The notes under the pieces were generated by a model. The model worked only from the letters and a program-made list of their open reading frames with translations. It was not told where the DNA came from and did not search any database. 41,965 nucleotides of DNA from a virus: IMG/VR virus record IMGVR_UViG_3300023094_000018, positions 1-41,965 of that record. The stretch is one strand, 5' to 3'. Each line of letters opens with the position of its first letter. The first letter of the stretch is position 1. This document shows, piece after piece, positions 26,220 through 39,415 of the stretch. Made by a program: the position numbers and the translations under genes.

Positions 26220-26525
26220 ATGGAGATCACAGGCAAAATACACGAAATTGGCAATACTGAACAAGTAACAGAAAGCCTTAAAAAAAGAGAATTGATATTG
26301 GAGTATGCAGAGAACCCACAATATCCAGAGTATTTACGTTTTGAAGCTATACAGGATAAATGTAACCTTCTTGACAATATTTATGCAGGTCAAGATATAA
26401 AAGTTTATTTTAACCTTAAAGGCCGCCCATGGACAGATAAGACGGGTAAGAAGTCTTACTTTAATTCATTGCAGATATGGAAAATTGAAGGTGGAAGTGG
26501 TCAAGGAGATGGATTACAATTCTAA
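26220..26525 (+). CDS. OB-fold ssDNA-binding protein (DUF3127-like)
   Basis: 101 residues. MEITGKIHEIGNTEQVTESL starts the first strand and hairpin; LRFEAIQDKCNLLDNIYAGQ, then IKVYFNLKGRPWTDKTGKKS and FNSLQIWKIE complete an OB-fold pattern, with the 'v.f.l.gr.w.....gk..fn.l..wkie' ending shared with DUF3127 and SSB-like proteins of Bacteroidota. It should coat single-stranded DNA for the Sak4-like ATPase. A GGSGQGDGLQF tail replaces the usual acidic SSB tip. Confidence 0.75.
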   Translation: MEITGKIHEIGNTEQVTESLKKRELILEYAENPQYPEYLRFEAIQDKCNLLDNIYAGQDIKVYFNLKGRPWTDKTGKKSYFNSLQIWKIEGGSGQGDGLQF

Positions 26526-29576: not shown

Positions 29577-29607
29577 TTGCAATTATTAAGAATAATTAAT
29601 ATATTTG
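29577..29607 (+). promoter_or_regulatory. rightward promoter for the small HTH gene
   Basis: TTG (29577-29579), 20 bases, TATATTTG (29600-29607). The ATG at 29611 follows after only three bases, so the transcript should be leaderless. Confidence 0.7.
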
Positions 29608-29610
29608 AAT

Positions 29611-29778
29611 ATGACATTAAAGGAACGAATTAACGAAGCAGGTATTAAGCAAAAGAAAGTTGCTGAAAAGATAGGGCTAAGCCCCGAACATCTTAATTTG
29701 CTATTAAATGGTAAATTAGATATGCCTGAAGATATCAGAAATAAGATTAATGACCTTTTATCAAAGGTTGCGTTTTAA
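29611..29778 (+). CDS. XRE-like helix-turn-helix protein, 55 aa
   Basis: MTLKERINEAGIKQKKVAEK then IGLSPEHLNLLLNGKLDMPE. The first four helices of an XRE-type HTH are visible ('gik...vaekiGlsp..ln.lLnGk...pe'), ending soon after. Below the usual size of repressors, so it may be an autoregulated Cro-like protein. It has its own promoter with almost no leader and precedes a small GIY-YIG gene. Confidence 0.75.
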   Translation: MTLKERINEAGIKQKKVAEKIGLSPEHLNLLLNGKLDMPEDIRNKINDLLSKVAF

Positions 29779-29810: not shown

Positions 29811-30101
29811 ATGAATAAGGAATACTGCGTTTATGCCTTGTATAAAGACAGAAATATTATCTATATCGGCATAACTAAGTCAATAAAAACAAGGCTAAGG
29901 CAACATAAATTAACTAAGGATTTTGATTATATAAAAACCATCGTTAAAGACCTTACAAGCCGAGAAGCTATAATTATAGAATCTGCTATGATAACATTTT
30001 TATCAGAATACTTAAAAAATCCATTATCAAACAAGGCAGGTAATAGGGAATACTTAATTGACCTGGTTAGTCAAAAAAGAGAGGATGGGGTCAATGTCTA
30101 A
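29811..30101 (+). CDS. small GIY-YIG nuclease
   Basis: A 96-residue minimal GIY-YIG domain: YALYKDRNIIYIGITKS with YAL at 8-10 and YIG at 18-20, an Arg-rich helix (IKTRLRQHK), and Glu57 (IIIESAM). No DNA-binding domain follows, which differs from homing endonucleases and fits UvrC-like or small phage structural nucleases. It overlaps the next gene. Confidence 0.75.
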   Translation: MNKEYCVYALYKDRNIIYIGITKSIKTRLRQHKLTKDFDYIKTIVKDLTSREAIIIESAMITFLSEYLKNPLSNKAGNREYLIDLVSQKREDGVNV

Positions 30102-30606
30102 TAAAGAAACATTCTATTTTTCGCACGATTATGAGCCAATTGGGGATCACAAAATAGGTGCTATGTTATGCGATTATGGTGCTGCTGGTTATGGTTATTT
30201 TTGGCGTATAACGGAGATGCTGCATAGCGAACCATCACATAAGTTACAGCTTAAATCTATAGTATATAAAGCAATTGCTAAGCAAATGCAAGCAAATGCT
30301 GAACAATTGCTAAAATTTGTTAAAGATTGCATTGAAGAATACGAATTATTCGCTACCGATGGAACGCATTTTTGGTCTGAAAGAGTTAACAGAAACATGG
30401 ATAAGCGCGAAGAAATTAGCCAAAAGAGGTCTGAAGCTGGCAAAAGAGGTGCATTTATTAAGCAAAATCAAGCAAATGCTAAGCAAACGTTAGCAATTGT
30501 TAAGCAAAACGCAGCAAAGGAAAGGAAAGGAAATATAAAAGAGATTGAAATACCAAACGGGGCTACGCCTAACGGCAGCCCCCACCCTAATCAGACTAGC
30601 AACTAA
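30094..30606 (+). CDS. DUF4373 (Lin1244/Lin1753-like) replication protein
   Basis: A 170-residue protein from the ATG at 30094. Residues about 5-90 (FYFSHDYEPIGDHKIGAMLC, then GYFWRITEMLHSEPSHKLQL) match the DUF4373 domain, a winged-helix N-terminus of phage and plasmid replication-initiation proteins. The C-terminus is charged and Gln/Ala-rich (IKQNQANAKQTLAIVKQ). It overlaps the helicase start. The gene contains the AGCAA repeat clusters described separately. Confidence 0.8.
   Translation: MSNKETFYFSHDYEPIGDHKIGAMLCDYGAAGYGYFWRITEMLHSEPSHKLQLKSIVYKAIAKQMQANAEQLLKFVKDCIEEYELFATDGTHFWSERVNRNMDKREEISQKRSEAGKRGAFIKQNQANAKQTLAIVKQNAAKERKGNIKEIEIPNGATPNGSPHPNQTSN
30270..30311. repeat. phased AGCAA repeats, cluster 1
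   Basis: AGCAA or AACAA at 30270, 30281, 30291 and 30302 (steps 11, 10, 11). Full units AGCAATTGCT, AGCAAATGCA, AGCAAATGCT and AACAATTGCT; the first is a perfect palindrome. The steps are not multiples of three. Confidence 0.75.
30461..30517. repeat. phased AGCAA repeats, cluster 2
   Basis: AGCAA at 30461, 30471, 30482, 30492, 30503 and 30513 (steps 10, 11, 10, 11, 10), mean 10.4 bases, one helical turn. An A/G-rich run follows (30517-30545). Iteron-like arrangement within the replication gene. Confidence 0.75.
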
Positions 30607-31592
30607 TGAGCGAGTACAAAAACATAATGGAATACCTGCCGCAAATTGAAAAGCTGCGTAATGAGGGTTTAACAAGAGGCACAAAGACTGGATTTGATTG
30701 CTTAGATAAATTATACTCAATAAAATTAGGAAGCTATACTACATTATTAGCAGAGCCTGGACATGGTAAATCTGAATTTATTATTGAAATGGCTATGAAC
30801 CAAGCAATAAAATTTGGGTATGTATCTTTAATCTGCTCACCCGAAACAGGTACACTTGAGCAGATAGTAGCAGAACTTATCCATAAATACACGGGTATGT
30901 CAATGTTAAAATCAGATTATAACCCTATACCTGATAATAAGTTTTACTTAGCACTTGAGTGGATTAATCAATATTTCGTTATCCCTGAAGATGTAAATAG
31001 CTATTCTATTCAACAGCTTTTTGAATTTGCTTATGGATGGGAAAAAGAAAATAACCGTAAAATACAAATTATAGTAGGCGAGCCATATAATGAATTAACG
31101 CACGATATGTCATCGTTTGGATCTCGTCAAGATTTGTATATTGAATGGCTTTATAGTTACTTCAGGAGAGAGTGCAGGAAAAGCAACAAACATTTCTTTT
31201 TGAGCATCCACCCATCGAGCCAAATGCCGGTAATGGAAAAGGGATTTACGTATTACCCTAAACCACTACCAAGACAAGCGGCTGGGGGCCAGGCAGCTTT
31301 CCGTAAAGCAATGACATGGATAACTCTTTGGAGGCCACCAGTAGGAATGTGTGATAGTAGTGGATGGGCTTACAAAGATAATGAGGTTCATGTTTATATT
31401 GATAAAGCAAAGCCAAAAGGCGTATCTTTCAAAGGTATGTGCAAACTATTCTTTGACTGGAAAAAGAACCGTTATTATGAGGATATAAATGGTAATGATA
31501 ATTACGCATTTGATCATGAAGAAAACAGTAAAGAAACAAATTTAATAATGCCACTTAGCACACAATTCGATGATGAAGAACCACCATTTTAG
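30606..31592 (+). CDS. DnaB-like replicative helicase
   Basis: A 328-residue RecA-fold helicase with Walker A EPGHGKSEF (residues 50-58), a following 'SLICSPETGTLEQIVAELIH' that corresponds to the DnaB region after the P-loop, and QAAGGQAAFRKAMTWITLWR near residue 220-240 matching the DnaB C-terminal sensor region. The N-terminal domain is short, so loading may rely on the DUF4373 protein encoded just before. It unwinds DNA at the fork. Confidence 0.85.
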   Translation: MSEYKNIMEYLPQIEKLRNEGLTRGTKTGFDCLDKLYSIKLGSYTTLLAEPGHGKSEFIIEMAMNQAIKFGYVSLICSPETGTLEQIVAELIHKYTGMSMLKSDYNPIPDNKFYLALEWINQYFVIPEDVNSYSIQQLFEFAYGWEKENNRKIQIIVGEPYNELTHDMSSFGSRQDLYIEWLYSYFRRECRKSNKHFFLSIHPSSQMPVMEKGFTYYPKPLPRQAAGGQAAFRKAMTWITLWRPPVGMCDSSGWAYKDNEVHVYIDKAKPKGVSFKGMCKLFFDWKKNRYYEDINGNDNYAFDHEENSKETNLIMPLSTQFDDEEPPF

Positions 31593-38491: not shown

Positions 38492-38718
38492 TTCTTATCA
38501 CTTATAGGGTCAAAAATTTTGTTAAGAACTGGTAATTTATCCCACGTTTCAAGTTGTTTAAAATATCCAAACAAAGCAAAGAAATCATTCACTTTATTAT
38601 CACTACATCTGCCTTCACGTATTCTTTTAACCGTTCGCGATGCTGTTGACTGATTAATTATACCAATATGATATTTCTTTTCGCTTGTTATTTTATTAAG
38701 TACTTCTAACCTTGTCAA
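38488..38718 (-). CDS. HTH-like hypothetical protein, 76 aa
   Basis: MTRLEVLNKITSEKKYHIGI then NQSTASRTVKRIREGRCSDN. The 'is.stas.tvkri..g......v..ff.lfGY' run looks like the second half of an HTH repressor. Start overlaps the 3' end of the endonuclease gene by 23 bases. It may regulate the insert. Confidence 0.55.
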   Translation of the reverse strand: MTRLEVLNKITSEKKYHIGIINQSTASRTVKRIREGRCSDNKVNDFFALFGYFKQLETWDKLPVLNKIFDPISDKK

Positions 38719-39415
38719 TGTATTTAAATTTAAAATTGTGAGTTGATTTATATATGCCTCTACAAACTCTTTGTATTGGTTTTTTAGGAATGCCTAATTC
38801 ATTAGATGCAAGATAAGAACTGTTGAACGTGGTAATATAATTATCTTTCATATCGTATTGCTCAACCATAAACCTCGATGATGTTTCGCTTTGCCGTATA
38901 ACTCGTTCTATAGGAATTGTTTTACCCTTGTTAGCGATAGATAGGTTAAGGCAATGCTGTTCTGATTTCTTTATCCCAGTTAACGAAGCTGATTTTTTTA
39001 AACGAGTTTCATCGCTATCTTTTTTCCCTAATTGAGATTTAGATATTGCTTCTTTATGTTTATCAGACAGACTTTTGCCCTTATGTATAAATGAAAATAT
39101 AGCTTTTGTTTCATCGGAGTGTTTCCAGCCACTTGTATTCCCCGCCACTTTACAGGAGTTAAAATACGGATTGAGCATATCGAAATACTTTTGTTCCGCT
39201 TTAATCAAATCATCAACATTACAGCATTCTAATATTTCAAAGATTAAATCACCCTCGCCATGTTTATTAAAGTGTCGTTGTAATATTTTAGCGTGATGGT
39301 TTCCTTTGCGCAAATAATGTAAGTGCAGCAATCTCCGCTTGTTGAAATTAACAGTACTGCCAATATATACCCTTCCGTTAATTAAACTTCTAAACTGATA
39401 TATGCCCGATTTCAT
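38696..39415 (-). CDS. GIY-YIG homing endonuclease with NUMOD3 repeats
   Basis: A 239-residue protein: GIY at 4-6, YIG at 17-19, Arg27-Arg28, and Glu74 (LIKAEQKYFDML), the standard catalytic set. Then three NUMOD3-like DNA-binding repeats (SDETKAIFSFIHKGKSLSDK, SDETRLKKSASLTGIKKSEQ and so on). Such enzymes spread by cutting phages lacking them. It sits on the opposite strand in the head operon between the head-morphogenesis and protease genes. Confidence 0.9.
   Translation of the reverse strand: MKSGIYQFRSLINGRVYIGSTVNFNKRRLLHLHYLRKGNHHAKILQRHFNKHGEGDLIFEILECCNVDDLIKAEQKYFDMLNPYFNSCKVAGNTSGWKHSDETKAIFSFIHKGKSLSDKHKEAISKSQLGKKDSDETRLKKSASLTGIKKSEQHCLNLSIANKGKTIPIERVIRQSETSSRFMVEQYDMKDNYITTFNSSYLASNELGIPKKPIQRVCRGIYKSTHNFKFKYIDKVRST

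Follow-up and report, generated by a model that had tools for sequence, protein, structure and literature searches.

Does a run of short, helically phased repeats inside a phage replication gene mark an origin of replication, or is it only the trace of a repetitive protein? The question is raised by a locus in IMG/VR record IMGVR_UViG_3300023094_000018, the whole of which (41,965 bases) forms the window analysed here. An earlier note on this DNA had described two clusters of AGCAA, of four and six copies, in a gene for an initiator-like protein, and had proposed a candidate origin. The alternating 10/11-base spacing is as it was described, and the six copies of cluster 2 are all exact; cluster 1, on the other hand, consists of three exact copies and an AACAA. 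The A-rich run said to follow cluster 2 is also present, in the form of a tract of A+G pentamers, and its register runs on from the last iteron (AGCAA AGGAA AGGAA AGGAA, 30513-30532). The features of the locus are collected in Table 1.

Table 1. Features of the candidate origin region, in window coordinates.
Feature	Position	Strand	Details
Initiator gene, 170 aa, Lin1244_N (PF14297, DUF4373) winged-helix	30094..30606	+	Pfam E 1.9e-9; phrog_2562 E 4e-15
Iteron cluster 1	30270..30306	+	AGCAA at 30270, 30281, 30291 and degenerate AACAA at 30302; steps 11, 10, 11
Iteron cluster 2	30461..30517	+	AGCAA at 30461, 30471, 30482, 30492, 30503, 30513; steps 10, 11, 10, 11, 10
Purine pentamer tract, AGGAA AGGAA AGGAA ATATAAAAGAGA	30518..30544	+	in register with last AGCAA; proposed unwinding/single-strand element
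Bulged hairpin, GGGGCT-ac-GCC-TAAC-GGC-AGCCCC	30559..30582	+	DNA fold -8.3 kcal/mol, z -2.1
DnaB-like RecA-fold ATPase, 328 aa, phrog_5482	30606..31592	+	DnaB_C E 9e-4; phrog_239 primase/helicase E 8.5e-14

The initiator gene and its neighbours

The assignment of the gene to DUF4373 is borne out. Its product scores 38.5 bits against the Lin1244_N profile, for which the curated cut-off is 25, and also matches phrog_2562, a 'replication initiation protein' family. PF14297 is the only Pfam family above its cut-off, and PF06970 (RepA_N) is not found at E<=0.01 for this protein. In the predicted structure (mean pLDDT 82; 95-98 over most of residues 21-120), a winged helix-turn-helix is followed by a long C-terminal helix. 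The model superposes on the N-terminal domains of pSK41 RepA_N and DnaD over 78-81 residues with Z of 6.6-7.0 (4pt7, 4pql, 5kbj and 4pta), tied with other winged helices. The fold search returns a generic winged helix with no decisive family, the match to known initiators being not above that to generic winged helices. Longer relatives have a C-terminal region that is absent from the window protein, and in some of them it weakly resembles DnaD C-terminal domains. Cluster 1 encodes residues 59-71, within the predicted helix-turn-helix (H55-64, H69-81), while cluster 2 codes for the last part of the long helix and for the linker.

The DnaB-like helicase that had been placed next to the initiator holds up only in part. 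The Pfam match to DnaB_C is weak and lies below the curated cut-off, whereas phrog_239 and phrog_19, both primase/helicase families, do match. The 328-aa DnaB-like ATPase is thus probably a helicase or a helicase-loading partner, and in several family members the next gene is a DnaB or a primase-helicase.

A few other genes of the window should be mentioned. A small GIY-YIG gene (29811-30101; Pfam E 8e-7) lies directly upstream of the initiator, and a minus-strand ORF at 38696-39415 looks, by eye, like a second GIY-YIG protein. A small HTH protein is encoded at 29605-29778, also upstream. About 4 kb upstream of the initiator, at 26220-26525, is a gene for a DUF3127 protein that matches phrog_4932, a family of phage single-strand DNA-binding proteins. 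The 41,965-base record has no direct terminal repeat 10-200 bases long.

The phased repeats appear to be conserved as DNA

When all 5-mers are considered, the six-copy AGCAA run is the sole chain of at least 4 copies at 10/11-bp steps in the 41,965 bases of the window, and in 60 equally long sequences from a first-order Markov model the longest such chains have 2 or 3 copies. The Markov sequences, together with the codon shuffles below, rule out chance as the origin of the six-copy chain.

A repeat inside a gene may nevertheless belong to the protein. The earlier note had set this aside on the ground that the steps are not multiples of three, an argument that is insufficient by itself because 10+11 nt make 21 nt, or 7 codons, so that a heptad (KQxxAxx) is possible. 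The linker encoded at cluster 2 is indeed of low complexity and reads as KQxxAxx heptads, and the repeat could come from such a linker with its codons repeating by chance. For this reason, synonymous codons were permuted while the protein was kept. The window gene contains 7 in-phase AGCAA pairs, against shuffle means of 0.81 (codons of the gene) and 0.38 (phage codon usage), and 7 pairs were reached in none of 5000 shuffles under either null.

The same analysis was extended to the family. A query of viral_contigs with the single protein returned no relative, and the relatives came from alignment queries; 235 Lin1244_N genes from viral_contigs, genome_contigs and phage records were reduced to 134 non-redundant ones with <40% of protein 4-mers in common. 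With the protein fixed, C-containing 5-mers recur at 10 bp 302 times versus 118 expected (z 14) and at 11 bp 846 times versus 243 expected (z 30), with z of 12, 21, 9, 14 and 8 at 21, 22, 32, 33 and 44 bp, respectively, although these pooled z values overstate independence because of shared ancestry. Controls and per-gene counts are free of that problem. In 110 control ORFs from the same loci, z is about 0 at 10, 11, 22 and 33 bp and 2.1 at 21 bp. Under the synonymous-codon null, 55 of the 134 genes are individually significant at p<0.01 and 81 at p<0.05, the other 53 missing p<0.05.

The signal is also localized. It is confined to nt 130-240 (z 17.3) and nt 330-480 (z 29.7) of the gene in the family-wide synonymous test, which matches the positions of the two clusters in the window, with none before nt 130 or between the two regions. 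The two clusters of one gene have 11.4 6-mers in common, compared with 7.5 when clusters of other genes are paired and 9.8 for the ten nearest relatives; the maximum in 2000 permutations was 8.9. The same word occurs in the folded, HTH-coding part and in the linker, which speaks against a repeat that belongs to the protein. The copies are furthermore split 94/84/84 over the codon frames, with all three frames in use in 37 of the 65 genes with a clear chain.

Some relatives carry the array outside any gene. The proteins of L051, L069, L077 and L217 have about 128 residues and no linker, and their genes have no array; instead, 5-7 TAACA copies at 10/11-bp steps lie in noncoding DNA just past the next gene. 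That next gene encodes a 586-588-aa protein in L217 and L069, and the one in L217 matches primase and DnaB_C domains. In L051 the noncoding TAACA array is followed by AAAGGAAAGGAAAGGAAATAA, so the pentamer tract is noncoding there as well. Over 725 kb of non-redundant loci, chains of at least 4 copies number 49 inside the initiator gene versus 5 outside it, and 4 of these 5 are the intergenic TAACA arrays. As these arrays are in noncoding DNA, they are not explicable by protein.

Codon shuffles, frame use and noncoding arrays together rule out the explanation by a protein repeat, and we give it practically no chance. The conclusion of the earlier note is therefore retained, on the strength of these tests and not of its frame argument. 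In more than 100 related phages and prophages, the short repeats appear to be conserved as DNA, not as protein.

The iteron word changes with the protein lineage

Loss of phasing in close relatives that keep the protein had been named in advance as evidence against an origin. This is not what is seen: the nearest proteins (L168, L171, L088 and L090), about 50% identical in alignment, are encoded by genes with phased repeats in both places, AGCAA being found at nt 174, 185, 195, 206, 216 and at nt 354, 365, 375, 385, with some copies absent in some of them. In the close relatives L169, L170 and L172, AACAA stands in the same places. Farther away, the word is TGCAA/ATGCA in Paenibacillus and other Bacillota and TACAA in a Porphyromonas phage, and TAACA and TGCGA are used elsewhere in the family. 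Within one gene the arrays are homogeneous for the word, which changes about 14 times on a tree of 53 proteins and is more clustered there than shuffled labels are. Given that the word has switched many times, co-evolution of iteron and initiator can be tested. Cluster 1 encodes part of the predicted helix-turn-helix, so that the word should not be regarded as independent of the DNA-binding residues.

Not every relative follows the pattern. Phage 1/32 (L002) has a Lin1244_N protein and no in-gene array. In L007, the closest phage by its helicase (76% identical), a different 235-aa protein with no Pfam match occupies the initiator position, and L007:4281-4988 contains GAAACGCA-type repeats at 12-bp steps and no 10/11-bp chains. 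Judging by these sequences, initiator and repeats have apparently been swapped together.

The Lin1244_N protein at L011:92-1276 has in its linker an in-frame insert that resembles, by eye, an HNH-type endonuclease (FFHDTCVKCLG...KNHIIPIYQGG...CARCNASKGP). The insert is flanked by the similar peptides ESLPNAYETS and DERLPNAYEMPS and lies at the place that cluster 2 takes in other members; it may be a mobile element inserted into the array.

A purine pentamer tract and a hairpin accompany the repeats

The tract that continues the register of cluster 2 is a family feature. A AAAGGAAAGG pentamer tract (AAAGG AAAGT AAAGG) adjoins the last iteron in 119 of the 134 genes. Over the same genes, 602 recurrences of purine 6-mers at a lag of 5 nt are counted versus 63 expected (z 43), and at 10 nt there are 372 versus 36 expected; the excess is absent at 4, 7 and 8 nt. 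Thus an A-rich tract next to the repeats, one of the marks of an in-gene origin, is found here as purine pentamers adjoining the last iteron, and we propose that it opens easily. As a speculation, the pentamers might form a single-strand ladder comparable to the DnaA-trios. The single-strand motif TnnT of DnaD (PMC10201434) was also considered as an identity for the tract; the fit is partial and we do not claim it.

The hairpin, which lies downstream of the tract in some members, is the least certain of the three elements and is not universal. Hairpins of the window's form, bulged by 2-3 nt in the 5' arm and with a TNAC loop but mostly unrelated stems, occur in L051, L056, L217, L221, L230, L069 and L077; they are in noncoding DNA, about 1.8-2.0 kb past the short gene. 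Plain hairpins with a TAAC loop and no bulge of 2-3 nt lie inside the gene, at nt 425-460, in L005, L061, L093, L137, L141 and L149. Altogether, C(TNAC)G hairpins number 16 in 1.33 Mb, nearly all of them at in-gene nt 425-460 or in noncoding DNA downstream of the short gene, and perfect hairpins at nt 380-560 number 29 versus 12 expected (maximum 17) with the protein fixed; these counts are descriptive only, since the motif was noticed first and counted afterwards. Rfam gave low-score matches at four loci, none near the gathering score and probably due to chance.

Bulged TNAC-loop hairpins with different stems were also seen at L221:2283-2310, L230:5230-5259 and L151:3281-3306, and such hairpins may form a structural family that can be recognised outside the initiator locus too.

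At the level of sequence statistics, then, the iterons and the pentamer tract are shown to be under DNA-level selection, and the hairpin to be enriched in the family.

The region is very likely an origin of replication

The candidate origin on the lambda O plan, as first proposed in the earlier note, emerges as the best-supported reading. It rests on the DNA-level selection, on the matching noncoding arrays, and on Tuc2009 rep, a gene with a known origin in which the same signature occurs (see below). We consider it very likely that the region is an in-gene replication origin built like those of lambda O, Tuc2009 and pSK41, the 170-aa winged-helix protein being the one that binds it; the binding and the origin activity are predicted from the sequence and by analogy. 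A skew maximum had been suggested as a further check. Between about 24 kb and 38 kb the cumulative GC skew climbs steadily; it has no extremum at 30.3-30.5 kb and is confounded by gene orientation, so it is of no help at this locus.

Phased sites bound by winged helix-turn-helix proteins occur at operators too. The array might accordingly be a multi-site operator or another nucleoprotein site (for autoregulation, partition or packaging) used by the same protein, and cluster 1 lies about 180 nt from the start codon. Nevertheless, the arrays are not at the promoter but 170-420 nt into the gene or, in the members with a short protein, some 1.8 kb downstream; the abutting pentamer tract points to an origin, as does the Tuc2009 origin, which likewise combines repeats with such a tract; and in the window, where this was looked at, the terminase gene is 4 kb away. 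We hold this alternative to be unlikely. It is more improbable still that the region is an origin whose array is read by another protein, such as host DnaA, a nucleoid protein or the product of the small HTH gene upstream, with Lin1244_N acting later. The presence of that HTH gene speaks for it, as does the fact that binding of Lin1244_N to the array is a prediction. However, the array is in, or shortly downstream of, the Lin1244_N gene across several bacterial phyla, and the iteron word changes with the Lin1244_N protein lineage.

For an origin with Lin1244_N as the binder, the following sequence of events can be envisaged. By analogy with lambda O, Tuc2009 and pSK41 (PMC7466680, PMC8965321, PMC5703833), the 170-aa winged-helix protein would bind the AGCAA iterons. 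As these recur every 10-11 bp, the bound molecules would align on one face of the helix and could assemble on cluster 2 into a filament-like complex, cluster 1 forming another, weaker group. By the same analogy, the complex would strain and open the adjacent purine pentamer tract, whose register is continuous with the last iteron, and the DnaB-like ATPase of the next gene would then be loaded; the hairpin beyond the tract may mark a priming or single-strand signal.

Comparison with known in-gene origins

Origins inside initiator genes are known already. In a literature search that most subscription papers lay outside, we found nothing on this origin, on Lin1244_N as an origin carrier, or on the arrangement of iterons, pentamers and hairpin; for DUF4373, the search returned iron-related papers only. 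We see about an even chance that a modular origin not described before is common to the Lin1244_N phages of Bacteroidota, Bacillota and other phyla. It would consist of lineage-specific iterons strictly phased at 10-11 bp, with one cluster in the codons of the DNA-binding helices; purine pentamers in register with the last iteron, maybe a DnaA-trio-like single-strand ladder; and, in some members, a TAAC-capped hairpin. All this would be written across the three frames, or placed between genes when the protein is short.

Such a module would supply a sequence rule (11-bp iterons, a 5-nt purine ladder and, in some cases, a hairpin) by which origins could be located in a widespread group. These phages and prophages, Bacteroidota phages among them, are ones for which we found no mapped origin in the literature. 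It would also mean that one stretch of DNA serves both as protein code and as a putative array of binding sites, part of it in the codons of predicted DNA-binding helices. It may also be asked whether phage initiators work with a 5-nt single-strand ladder similar to the bacterial DnaA-trios.

One close parallel is with Tuc2009 and TP901-1, whose Rep and ORF13, respectively, bind direct repeats within their own genes that serve as the origin (PMC8965321), as is proposed here; the GenBank record of Tuc2009 likewise places the origin in rep (orf16). When Tuc2009 rep was put through the same codon-shuffle test, CAACC was found at nt 342, 353, 364 and 375 (p 0.001 at 11 bp); after it comes the tract AGGAT AGGAT AGGAG AGGTT AGGTT AGGTA (p 0.002 at lag 5). 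Tuc2009 thus shares with the window an 11-bp-step repeat followed by a 5-nt repeat tract. For lambda O, as a positive control, the true 20/23/44-bp spacing was recovered (p 0.002-0.005), while TP901-1, with its experimentally known in-gene origin, gave no significant signal at 11 bp or elsewhere in this test. Hence the signature is present in a known origin with a protein other than Lin1244_N but is not universal among in-gene origins. Direct repeats beyond the needs of the protein, another mark of an in-gene origin, are found in the window and in the family, with Tuc2009 and lambda as positive controls. The proteins themselves differ: the Tuc2009 product matches Rep_Org_C and that of TP901-1 orf13 matches DnaB_2 and, weakly, HTH_36, neither matching Lin1244_N, and no cluster was noted in the HTH-coding part of Tuc2009.

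It should also be noted that the pentamer tract of Tuc2009 rep (L237:3097-3876) runs to about 8 or more units after the 11-bp repeats, its 5-nt period exceeding the codon-shuffle null.

In staphylococcal pSK41, the winged-helix N-terminal domain of RepA_N proteins binds Rep boxes in the middle of the rep gene, and the ori, with four Rep boxes, encodes a dispensable linker (PMC5703833). The central position of the repeats in a gene for a winged-helix protein, here a predicted one, is common to both systems. Unlike the window, pSK41 is a plasmid and, in the parts of the source consulted, is described with no pentamer tract (PMC5703833), and the window protein is without PF06970.

The lambda ori in gene O (PMC7466680) likewise has iterons beside an A-rich tract midway along the initiator gene, and replication genes adjoin it. 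Its iterons are 18-19-bp imperfect inverted repeats spaced by about 20-24 bp, a pattern that the window does not show, and its next gene is a P-type loader; the window has instead a 5-bp core every 10-11 bp in two clusters, a pentamer tract and, by appearance, a DnaB-like ATPase in the next gene.
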